This document shows, piece after piece, positions 27,815 through 29,722 of a stretch of DNA of 64,000 nt (its first letter is position 1; the number at the start of each line of letters is the position of its first letter). The notes under the pieces are model-generated. The model was not told where the DNA came from and ran no database searches. It was given only the letters and a program-made list of their open reading frames with translations. Both the position numbers and the translations under genes were made by a program. Source of the stretch: Arenibacter amylolyticus. GTDB lineage: Bacteria; Bacteroidota; Bacteroidia; Flavobacteriales; Flavobacteriaceae. The stretch is from NCBI RefSeq assembly GCF_002150785.1, contig NZ_MTAZ01000032.1:1-64000 (forward strand), read 5' to 3'.

Positions 27815-28516
27815 CTAGTTGGTATTAATATAAATAATCCCCGCAATCATAGCCAGGCCAAAACTCATTAAGGTACCTATAAGAATATATTCTGTTAGCT
27901 TCCGAGAATTACCTTCCTTAAGATCATTAAACCGAAATACGGATTTTGCTGCAATTAACAACCCAATGGCCTCCCAACGTCCCATTACGATGAATCCAAG
28001 CACAAAAAGCCGTTCTATAATACCAATATACTTCCCAGCATTGGGCAGGGATTTATGGTCTAGCGATATCCGATCTGACATCCCTTCCAGAAGCTGTGCC
28101 ATTATTATGGAGGAGGGACCCCCTACAAATACAATGGCGGTTACCAAAGACCAGTCCACCTCACTTATTAAGAACAAGCTATGCTCCAATAGATTAGCGT
28201 GGTAGGCACAGCTATAAAGCACCACTACGTGCAACAACTGGTCTATAAAAAAGGGAATAGAGCGTTGCTTAAACAAGTGAAGCGCATACATCTTACCCAG
28301 ATCTATAAAATAATGGGTAACAGCAATCACTACTGCCCAAAACCATAGATCTAGATTCCACAGCAAAAGCATGGTAACCCCAAAATGTACCAAAATGTGC
28401 AAATACAAATAACCAGATGCCATTTTATGAACCTCCTTATGCACCACCCATCGGGTAGGTTGCAACATAAAATCGCCAATAAGATGTGCCAATAAAAGCT
28501 TGGTAAATAATAGCAT
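27815..28516 (-). CDS. DUF3307 domain-containing membrane protein
   Basis: Inner-membrane protein of 233 residues with about six hydrophobic segments. The N terminus LLAHLIGDFMLQPTRWVVHKE and following HILVHFGVTMLLLW and VTHYFIDLGKMY match the DUF3307 signature of conserved His and Asp in membrane helices. These could bind metal, but this is not established. It starts 2 bp after the SatD-like gene, so the two form an operon. The function is unknown; linkage to a SatD-like regulator is as I recall recurrent in Bacteroidota. Confidence 0.85.
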   Translation of the reverse strand: MLLFTKLLLAHLIGDFMLQPTRWVVHKEVHKMASGYLYLHILVHFGVTMLLLWNLDLWFWAVVIAVTHYFIDLGKMYALHLFKQRSIPFFIDQLLHVVVLYSCAYHANLLEHSLFLISEVDWSLVTAIVFVGGPSSIIMAQLLEGMSDRISLDHKSLPNAGKYIGIIERLFVLGFIVMGRWEAIGLLIAAKSVFRFNDLKEGNSRKLTEYILIGTLMSFGLAMIAGIIYINTN

Positions 28517-28518
28517 CC

Positions 28519-29124
28519 CTATACTTTTTTTGTAATGGTTTCGTAATACTGCAATAGATCTAGTACTAGATCCATTCTTGCGCGTTGAAGGCGCTGACTC
28601 ACCGCAGATTGCTTGATTCCCAAGCGATCTGCAATCTCTTGTTGTGATTCCGATGGATATTCTAAGGTTATCCGTACAATTTCCGAAGATACCTCGGACC
28701 AGTTATCCATAAAATCCAAGGCCAATTTCAACATCAGATTTAGAGACCTATCTTTTTGCTCATCCCCAGTAGCCATGGCCAGGTTCAACTTTTGATCCTT
28801 CAAGGTTTCAAACATCCTTCCAGACCGTTGGTGAGCCTCCCCATTAGACTCACTTACGCTTGCAGCAGTATAGGCTTCGCTCCCTATACCTATCCCCATC
28901 CTAACATCCAAAGACTTGTTCATCTTAATGATCGCTTTGATATGTATGGCCGTGCGCAAGGCTTTTTGCGGACTGGTCTTTATCTGGAACTCATCTCCCC
29001 TATAAATTTCCCAATCCAAGGGGGAATTGCCCAAACTCCCTAAAAAGCTTTTTAAATTGGCCATCCAATCGGAGGAGCTGTCCCTTTGAGAATTAATAAT
29101 ATCTCCAGTAATTATAGCAACCAT
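28519..29124 (-). CDS. SatD-like protein with C-terminal helix-turn-helix
   Basis: Protein of 201 residues in two parts. The N-terminal part (about 1-140) begins MVAIITGDIINSQRD and contains WEIYRGDEFQIKT and RMGIGIGSE, as in SatD family proteins; the fold resembles a nucleotidyl-cyclase-type domain, which is my inference. The C-terminal part (about 150-200: YPSESQQEIADRLGIKQSAVSQRLQRARMD) is a clear helix-turn-helix of the sigma-region-4/LuxR style. It is co-transcribed with the DUF3307 membrane protein. The upstream DNA carries two identical inverted repeats overlapping a -7 box, so it is a candidate autoregulator. Confidence 0.85.
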   Translation of the reverse strand: MVAIITGDIINSQRDSSSDWMANLKSFLGSLGNSPLDWEIYRGDEFQIKTSPQKALRTAIHIKAIIKMNKSLDVRMGIGIGSEAYTAASVSESNGEAHQRSGRMFETLKDQKLNLAMATGDEQKDRSLNLMLKLALDFMDNWSEVSSEIVRITLEYPSESQQEIADRLGIKQSAVSQRLQRARMDLVLDLLQYYETITKKV

Positions 29125-29135
29125 TATATATTATC

Positions 29136-29204
29136 TATAAGGCTAATATACAAAAATATAAGTAAAATCGCTTATATAATGAAATATAAGGTGAAAAGCT
29201 TATA
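29136..29204 (-). promoter_or_regulatory. Operator-like inverted repeats upstream of the satD-like operon
   Basis: Two copies of TATAAG-N8-CTTATA lie at 29157-29176 and 29185-29204, 28 bp apart centre to centre. A further half-site TATAAG is at 29136-29141. The first copy overlaps the putative -7 box and the start codon is at 29124. The identical spacing argues for a dimeric regulator binding here, plausibly the SatD-like protein itself. Confidence 0.65.
29151..29158 (-). promoter_or_regulatory. Putative -7 box of the satD-like operon
   Basis: TATTTTTG on the minus strand fits TAnnTTTG, 26 bp before the ATG. It overlaps the first inverted repeat by two bases. No -33 TTG is seen. Confidence 0.45.
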
Positions 29205-29269
29205 ATAACCTTGCCATCCCCAGTGCATAGGCCTAGTGGCCATCTACGGTTATGGGGAGCTAGACAATA

Positions 29270-29722
29270 TTAAAACCAACGCCTTACCAGTACGCGATAT
29301 TTTTGAAACTCTTTTGGGAATTTTTTGAAGAGTATCTCCTCTTCCGGTTCAATTTGGAAAGCATTTATATAGTACACAAAACCAGCTGCAAGCAAGGTAT
29401 TAAAGGCATTTCCCAAGTACAATCCCCAGCCTAATAAAACAAGCAACAAAGCCAAGTACATAGGGTTCCTAGAATACTGATAAATTCCTCCTGTAACCAA
29501 TGTAGCAGTCTTGGTAGGTGACTTAGGATTTATAGTGGTAGAAGCCCTAATGAATTGAATTATAGACACCACCCCCACAATCAAAGCCACCCCAAAAAGA
29601 AAGGCCATTAGGTATTCCCTTCCAAAAAAATCGAAATACCCAACAGGTAAATATTCAGCTAAGACATACATGAACCCTGCAAAGATAATTGTAACAATCA
29701 CAGGTGGAATTTTTAATTTCAT
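29270..29722 (-). CDS. Isoprenylcysteine methyltransferase-like (PEMT/ICMT fold) membrane protein
   Basis: Membrane protein of 150 residues with four hydrophobic segments. The motif GGIYQYSRNPMYLALLLVLLGW and the C-terminal IEPEEEILFKKFPKEFQKYR are the signature of the ICMT/phospholipid methyltransferase superfamily, which use S-adenosylmethionine. The substrate in bacteria of this subgroup is unknown; lipid methylation is the likely guess. It is transcribed alone and divergent from rdgB. Confidence 0.85.
   Translation of the reverse strand: MKLKIPPVIVTIIFAGFMYVLAEYLPVGYFDFFGREYLMAFLFGVALIVGVVSIIQFIRASTTINPKSPTKTATLVTGGIYQYSRNPMYLALLLVLLGWGLYLGNAFNTLLAAGFVYYINAFQIEPEEEILFKKFPKEFQKYRVLVRRWF

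Follow-up and report, generated by a model that had tools for sequence, protein, structure and literature searches.

Upstream of satD in the window (the whole stretch of DNA analysed, 64,000 nucleotides), we found an array of three 20-bp palindromes at a step of exactly 28 bp, and arrays of this kind stand in front of satD genes in Bacteroidota and beyond. We consider it probable, at roughly 85%, that the array is the operator of SatD and that SatD acts as a self-only autorepressor of the satD-DUF3307 unit, perhaps a nucleotide-responsive one. Sequence comparison establishes that the array geometry is conserved, that the operator letters co-vary with the SatD recognition helix, that exact arrays occur only at satD (in two genera) and that the gene pair is near-fixed.

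Results

Array and promoter elements in the window

The array and its candidate promoter element are located as follows.

29185-29204: array unit 1 (distal), TATAAG-N8-CTTATA, TATAAGGTGAAAAGCTTATA, placed by array fit, one of two exact copies in the genome
29157-29176: array unit 2, TATAAG-N8-CTTATA, TATAAGTAAAATCGCTTATA, 28 bp from unit 1, the other exact genome copy
29129-29148: array unit 3 (proximal, degenerate), minus-strand reading TATTAG-N8-ATAATA, 28 bp from unit 2, ending 4 bp before the satD ATG
29151-29158, minus strand: candidate Bacteroidota -7 element TATTTTTG (TAnnTTTG), between array units and touching unit 2

A previous sequence-only reading of this DNA had described two copies of TATAAG-N8-CTTATA, the first overlapping a TAnnTTTG box, together with a TATAAG half-site at 29136-29141. 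Both copies are present at 29157-29176 and 29185-29204, and TATTTTTG, at 29158-29151 of the minus strand, shares 2 bp with the unit at 29157-29176. The letters of the half-site are there too, but they fall within the degenerate unit 29129-29148 and are out of register with it; the paired repeats are real, but the array has three units and is not a pair plus the named half-site.

That reading had also proposed a genome search for further copies. TATAAG-N8-CTTATA without mismatch was found at two places in the 3,985,366-base genome, both at satD, with no exact copy elsewhere, and the backwards pattern was found once. When A or T was permitted at position 4 of the half-sites, one extra place appeared, on contig 52 (backwards control: six). 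A wider regulon reached through this relaxed site was rejected, a single site being fewer than the six of the backwards control; the 2 kb around it held one 101-aa ORF, away from the site and on the opposite strand, frames crossing the ends of the stretch being uncounted. With two mismatches permitted, the window gave 11 matches against 6.77 expected, and because 9 of 100 shuffles also reached 11, these loose matches were not significant. The evidence rests on the exact pair, on the step of 28 bp and on conservation rather than on loose matches. Scans for sigma-70-type promoters (6 against 7.4 expected) and terminators (1 against 2.2 expected) were at or below chance.

Array geometry across SatD loci

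We gathered 217 SatD loci (L003-L219) holding 203 distinct proteins, which were thinned to 123 non-redundant representatives. The loci came from four sources: family genomes (33 of 120 gave a match), genus genomes (all 18 gave a match), named loci (80, chosen as the best among at least 563 relatives) and a sample across the phylum in which 113 of 395 genomes matched at E 0.001, some of these matches being HTH fragments. The phylum-sample matches made up 119 rows, from which 30 were obtained as loci and 60 more regions were taken first; outside this first selection were 11 rows at E 1.1e-10 or better (10 mostly close kin of those taken, one duplicate) and 18 weaker rows; seven of the 11 belong to the array-less clade described below. 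A later addition of 25 regions comprised those 10, 12 of the 18 weaker rows and three family-genome matches previously without a locus, and the six weaker rows left out were matches of 42-72 positions, mostly the HTH alone.

A motif-blind count over the 150 bases 5' of the start codon in the 123 loci gave 882 identical 6-mer repeats at 28 bp and 349 at 29 bp, and only 6-47 at each of the remaining distances from 6 to 44. Inverted 6-mer pairs peaked at 14 bp in the same loci (160, versus 17.4 +- 3.9 in dinucleotide shuffles). The 28/29-bp repeat was present upstream in 112 of 123 loci, versus 3 of 123 within the gene and 9 of 120 downstream; it was also seen at -360 to -211 in 15 of 122, where arrays perhaps extend that far. 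We weighed whether the repeats could have arisen by chance or from the base composition of an AT-rich region between genes, a view with which the near-chance loose matches of the window (11 against 6.77) would agree. The 28/29-bp periodicity in 112/123 loci, controlled by place and by shuffles, refutes this, and the G+C-rich half-sites of the haloarchaeal and viral arrays described below also speak against it, so that we give it practically no credence.

The fitted array exceeded all 10 mononucleotide shuffles in 107 of the 123 representatives (16 did not). These 107 arrays have two to four units with a step of 28 (173 times) or 29 (78 times), and their end lies at a median of 9 bp from the start codon. 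Moreover, the last unit ends 10 bp or less from the start codon in 57/107 arrays, and therefore we favoured repression over activation. SatD might instead activate its own unit from the array through a sigma-70 region 4-like HTH, as a positive feedback switch; its HTH does match Sigma70_r4_2 (27.9 bits), and activation would be possible in the 11/107 arrays whose last unit lies more than 40 bp before the start codon. However, the last unit of those 57 arrays would sit over or past the likely transcription start, which suits blocking, and we regard an activating SatD as rather unlikely.

TAnnTTTG, which we take to be the Bacteroidota -7 consensus, occurred within the last 160 bp in 38 of the 107 array-bearing representatives, against 16.1 expected from mononucleotide shuffles, and in 21 of these 38 it begins 16-19 bases inside a unit. 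The other 69/107 arrays lack the element, and therefore the place of the promoter in them is uncertain.

Of the later-added regions, 16 of 25 beat the shuffles, and among the 10 new representatives that they contributed, 7 beat the shuffles and 7 had the 28/29-bp repeat, which brought the totals to 114/133 by array fit and 119/133 by repeat count. Since the wider sampling shifts the array frequency by fit only from 87% to 86%, the inference is unchanged. Conservation of the repeats upstream of orthologous operons, which had been proposed as a check on the earlier note, was found for the geometry (112/123), but the literal TATAAG-N8-CTTATA is not family-wide and one distant clade is without the array. 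In this clade of distant homologues with HAVLTGD (L203, L205, L207, L210, L238-L244), 0 of 11 loci had an array above shuffles, and it has either other regulation or is a different gene.

Several very distant SatD-like genes (L246-L255, profile scores 29-42) have 28/29-bp arrays of the GAAACA, GCAACA, GAAATT or ATCAAC type; judged from these sequences, the array may extend well past the Pfam limits of the SatD family. One genome (G371) has two satD genes, on contigs C2 (L195) and C3 (L189), each with an array consensus of ATCAAC type, that of L195 being narrowly above shuffles; as both arrays are of the same type, the two SatD proteins may cross-regulate.

Exact arrays are confined to satD in two genera

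The exact three-half-site pattern of the window's clade occurred at 45 places in 17 of 18 genus genomes (one genome had no exact match), and all 45 were 143 bp or less upstream of a SatD profile match. The corresponding Flavobacterium pattern occurred at 75 places in 18 of 61 genomes, all 75 at 255 bp or less upstream of a SatD match, which was present in 35 of the 61. Together, the places in the two genera lie 8-255 bp upstream of a SatD profile match, and the backwards controls gave 0 in every genome; these counts include overlapping matches within one array repeatedly, and the exact pattern misses degenerate or single sites elsewhere. As no second target was found, SatD and its operator would be free to drift together, and such joint drift would explain the change of letters between clades.

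Operator letters and the SatD recognition helix

The half-site letters differ by clade: TAT(A/T)AG in the window's clade, TATTAC in most Flavobacterium loci examined, and TATCGG, TATCGT, TATCTG, TATTCC, TATAGT and more in other lineages. For co-variation we used 101 of the 123 representatives, the 22 without a clear margin over shuffles being dropped, and these showed 28 spellings of the operator consensus, of uneven reliability. Operator distance was correlated with recognition-helix distance given the N-terminal domain (partial Mantel r=0.43, 0/2000 permutations, n=101), versus a partial r of -0.04 (1433/2000 permutations) for the operator and the N-terminal domain given the helix.

Residues 177 and 174 had the strongest association with operator letters of all residues tested; residues 137, 186, 138 and 27, outside the helix, were also high before correction for descent. 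At operator base 5, alanine at residue 174 went with A in 50/58 cases, serine with G in 18/20 and threonine with G in 6/7, and glutamine at residue 177 paired with (A/T)AG in 43/47. Among Flavobacterium-type proteins, the 24 with NQAAVSRR had 158 TATTAC hexamers versus one TGTTAC, and the six with KRAAVSRR (one without any) had 23 TGTTAC versus 4 TATTAC; the Flavobacterium loci L094 and L165 had none or one of the counted hexamers.

On an N-terminal-domain tree of 98 tips (98 of the 101 representatives), the class of residue 174 changed on 13 branches and base 5 on 15, and 9 branches were shared versus 1.55 expected (0/5000 placements as high), one of the 9 adjoining the tree root. Residue 177 alone was not significant in this test (10 shared branches versus 6.96 expected, 437/5000), nor was residue 173 (z 0.8), and in a tree scan of 14 HTH-region residues, 174, 171 and 183 stood out. 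The operator letters were therefore found to depend on the protein's own recognition helix, strongly so for residue 174, and the Mantel test, residue counts and tree together indicate SatD itself as the reader of the array.

These results bear on two other explanations. Local operators are often read by regulators coded elsewhere, and binding by SatD is predicted here, so that a different regulator could bind the array with SatD merely as a controlled neighbour. Because the operator letters follow the SatD helix beyond shared descent, such a foreign regulator would need to track that helix clade by clade, and the exact arrays lie only at satD in two genera; we judge this improbable. The inverted repeats can pair once transcribed and lie close to the start codon, and they might function in RNA as leader hairpins of an attenuator or riboswitch. 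Against this, the window leader folds no better than shuffles (z -0.46, 59/200 as good), no Rfam family was found on the array (one sub-threshold intron match lies elsewhere), and the half-sites co-vary with a DNA-binding helix; an RNA function is hardly credible.

The SatD protein and its DUF3307 partner

The array is followed by satD and a DUF3307 gene, with these features.

28519-29124, minus strand: satD, 201-aa SatD-family protein, PF16264 at 36.4 bits over a cut-off of 29, profile positions 4-199 of 211
About residues 1-120 of SatD: palm domain, nucleotidyl-cyclase-like by AlphaFold model and fold matches, with the C-terminal HTH beyond
29101-29103, minus strand: Asp8 codon, candidate metal-binding residue on strand 1 (model strand 2-10), D in 200/203 proteins
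28993-28995, minus strand: Asp44 codon, within RGDEFQ at a GGDEF-like position, D in 202/203; the residue sits between strands 38-41 and 45-50 and is the second candidate metal ligand
28582-28611, minus strand: HTH recognition helix, residues 172-181, QSAVSQRLQR, helix 172-181 in the model
27815-28516, minus strand: DUF3307 polytopic membrane protein, 233 aa, PF11750 at 87.4 bits, starting 2 bp after the satD stop

The window protein was 66-74% identical to Arenibacter SatD proteins, the closest named ones among the best 80 of at least 563 relatives. The SatD AlphaFold model, made from 32 sequences (pLDDT 94.8, pTM 0.91), has a beta-alpha-beta-beta-alpha-beta palm and a C-terminal HTH, and the cyclase-fold-like sensor with C-terminal HTH that had been read from the sequence is supported by this confident model, with modest structural matches. 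The best Foldseek hit had E 1.2e-3, none reaching E 0.001, and the best VIA Z was 9.5, slightly above the 7-8 that are this tool's typical best for models lacking a clear match; the top two VIA matches had rmsd 2.9-3.2 over 108-128 residues. The 50 VIA rows listed (Z 8.0-9.5), like the structural neighbours listed in general, were mainly adenylyl and guanylyl cyclases, diguanylate-cyclase (GGDEF) proteins, type III effectors containing Cas10/Cmr2 and the GTP cyclohydrolase III MJ0145, all with modest scores. A PDB sequence search with the SatD profile gave a best E of 0.026, over HTH parts.

At the position of the GGDEF of diguanylate cyclases, the window SatD reads RGDEFQ. Judged by fold position, D8 and D44 are candidates for the two metal-site aspartates, the equivalence coming from topology and established knowledge of the fold; S12 is conserved in 200/203 proteins. 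From the model it is plausible that the SatD palm is a nucleotide-binding, possibly catalytic, sensor.

The two-gene unit with a polytopic membrane partner is supported: DUF3307 lies on the same strand downstream of satD in 119/123 representatives and has several invariant His and Asp residues. In 86 the genes are adjacent, in 31 the open frame starts before the end of satD, and in L175 and L201 it starts about 250 and about 200 bases after it. No DUF3307 match was found in 4/123, including L091, which is cut by the contig end and whose remaining residues resemble a DUF3307 start. The DUF3307 model is all-helical (pLDDT 90.1, pTM 0.72), and its fold comparison turned up nothing usable (Foldseek E at best 1.3; VIA Z 6.0, channels). 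Among PHROG families, DUF3307 hits a membrane-protein family (38.9 bits) from the category moron, auxiliary metabolic gene and host takeover, and no record of the phage collection was matched by the window SatD or by a Vibrio DUF3307 protein. An anti-phage defence system was considered and rejected, as PADLOC gave 0 families at E 0.1 for SatD and DUF3307.

The gene that ends next to satD on its upstream side (window 29270-29722) is phospholipid/isoprenylcysteine methyltransferase-like. Of the 80 loci sharing the window's helix type, 76 had a frame with an R(R/K)WF end like that of this neighbour at 330 bp or less upstream, and the locus therefore seems stably placed.

Arrays outside Bacteroidota

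A satD-like gene was found directly 5' of DUF3307 on plasmids of Vibrio, Salinivibrio, Pseudoalteromonas and haloarchaea, and, with SatD likeness judged by eye only, such pairs were also found on Sphingomonas, Enterobacter and Fusobacterium plasmids. A viral-contig scan with SatD gave four loci with a satD-like gene before DUF3307, and the scan with a haloarchaeal SatD gave no locus. The plasmid and viral set had 14 loci, one of which (Segatella) is itself from Bacteroidota, and some start codons were placed by eye. When the fit was relaxed to a spacer of 7-9 and a step of 27-30, it exceeded ten shuffles in 12 of the 14, the margin being narrow in two Salinivibrio loci and in viral or plasmid locus L222; the upstream regions of Sphingomonas and Fusobacterium fitted this looser array no better than shuffles.

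Several of these arrays are clear by eye: (T/A)TTAGC-N8-GCTAA(T/A) in Vibrio lentus (three units, step 28), TGTAAC-N8-GTTACY in Pseudoalteromonas (two units, step 28), a TGGCCG-N8-CGGCCA type on viral contig L221 (three units, step 29) and GTTCGC-N8-GCGAAC in haloarchaeal Haloplanus and Halorientalis (step 29), the last two counting as one case because their SatD proteins are 94.5% identical. In addition, a plasmid (L235) of Natronosalvus, a second haloarchaeal lineage, has TACAAC-N8-GTTGTA at 1402-1421 and 1431-1450 (step 29); its SatD is 30% identical to that of Haloplanus, and the next gene is annotated as hypothetical only, not as DUF3307. An array-bearing haloarchaeal SatD member scored 110.9 bits to PF16264.

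Two of the loci, an Enterobacter plasmid (L233) and a viral contig (L223), have in common a 19-bp odd-length palindrome, GTCAAY-N7-GTTGAY, at a step of about 29, which departs from N8. On a Sphingomonas insulae plasmid (L228, 1034-4320), the satD-like/DUF3307 pair has as neighbours one gene annotated as a Pycsar system effector and another annotated as an adenylate/guanylate cyclase domain protein, a defence-like setting.

Discussion

We propose that each 20-bp palindrome (6-bp half-site, N8, inverted half-site) would take one SatD dimer through the C-terminal HTH, and that two to four units at a 28/29-bp step would place SatD dimers side by side, beginning at the core promoter and reaching close to the start codon. 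Binding is presumably direct and dimeric, and neighbouring dimers probably cooperate. SatD dimers on the array would keep RNA polymerase out or stop it in its first steps, which would turn the satD-DUF3307 transcript off. The palm domain, with aspartates 8 and 44 kept, may release or tighten the array upon binding of a nucleotide-type ligand together with metal, and because of this domain a nucleotide or metal-nucleotide is the first candidate for the releasing signal. DUF3307 would then be the output, a membrane protein produced once SatD lets go. The earlier proposal of an autoregulated two-gene unit appears well founded given the geometry, the helix co-variation and the satD-only arrays in two genera, but its wording had to be narrowed to three units and to a conserved geometry rather than conserved letters.

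Further, we put forward a broader reading, which is possible though doubtful. satD-DUF3307 might be a self-contained cross-domain module whose palm binds or makes a nucleotide signal and whose HTH dimers form a filament on the array, the signal both opening the array and acting on a DUF3307 membrane effector; helix and operator, forming a regulon that contains no other target, might have co-diverged from Bacteroidota to haloarchaea, leaving a naturally evolved, readable recognition code.

Self-regulating repressors of small operons include LexA, TetR-type repressors and toxin-antitoxin autorepressors, with which SatD has in common a DNA-binding protein that would control its own operon via promoter palindromes. 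SatD differs from them in its array of two to four palindromes at a fixed 28/29-bp step, with no second array by the exact patterns used, and in a sensor part with a predicted nucleotidyl-cyclase-like palm fold. The nucleotidyl-cyclase/GGDEF/Cas10-palm superfamily is alike in predicted fold and in the conserved aspartates on strand 1 and on the strand 2-3 hairpin, and Panoptes OptS (mCpol) stood at rank 48 in the Foldseek list for the SatD model (E 0.037); unlike that superfamily, SatD joins its palm to an HTH and has DUF3307 as its partner, and the likeness is one of predicted fold only.

The SatD family (PF16264), whose cut-off the window protein exceeds, takes its name from the sat operon of Streptococcus mutans, and the Streptococcus partner SatE is presumably a DUF3307 protein. 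Snowprint reportedly makes its predictions from inverted repeats near a regulator. The Snowprint paper (PMC10858194), in the excerpt consulted, describes the prediction of regulator-operator pairs; an excerpt of a Fusobacterium paper mentions SatD for acid tolerance, and another associates the streptococcal SatCDE cluster with protein translocation and acid tolerance. Among the openly licensed PubMed Central papers listed, no operator, regulator or DNA-binding role was found for SatD/DUF3307, which speaks only weakly for the absence of such a role. Autoregulation itself is well known; the points that seem new are the SatD family as a regulator, an array geometry common to bacteria and archaea, a code linking helix and operator, and the sensor-HTH architecture.

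With this reading, the SatD family gains a testable role, that of an autoregulator that binds DNA and carries a cyclase-like sensor, and gains an operator in many genomes simultaneously. Operator spellings that match the helix of a self-only regulator offer a natural data set on how proteins recognise DNA, and SatD-operator variants could supply orthogonal repressor-operator pairs for Bacteroidota genetics. DUF3307 becomes approachable as well, because its expression can be linked to the signal that SatD senses, whatever that may be.
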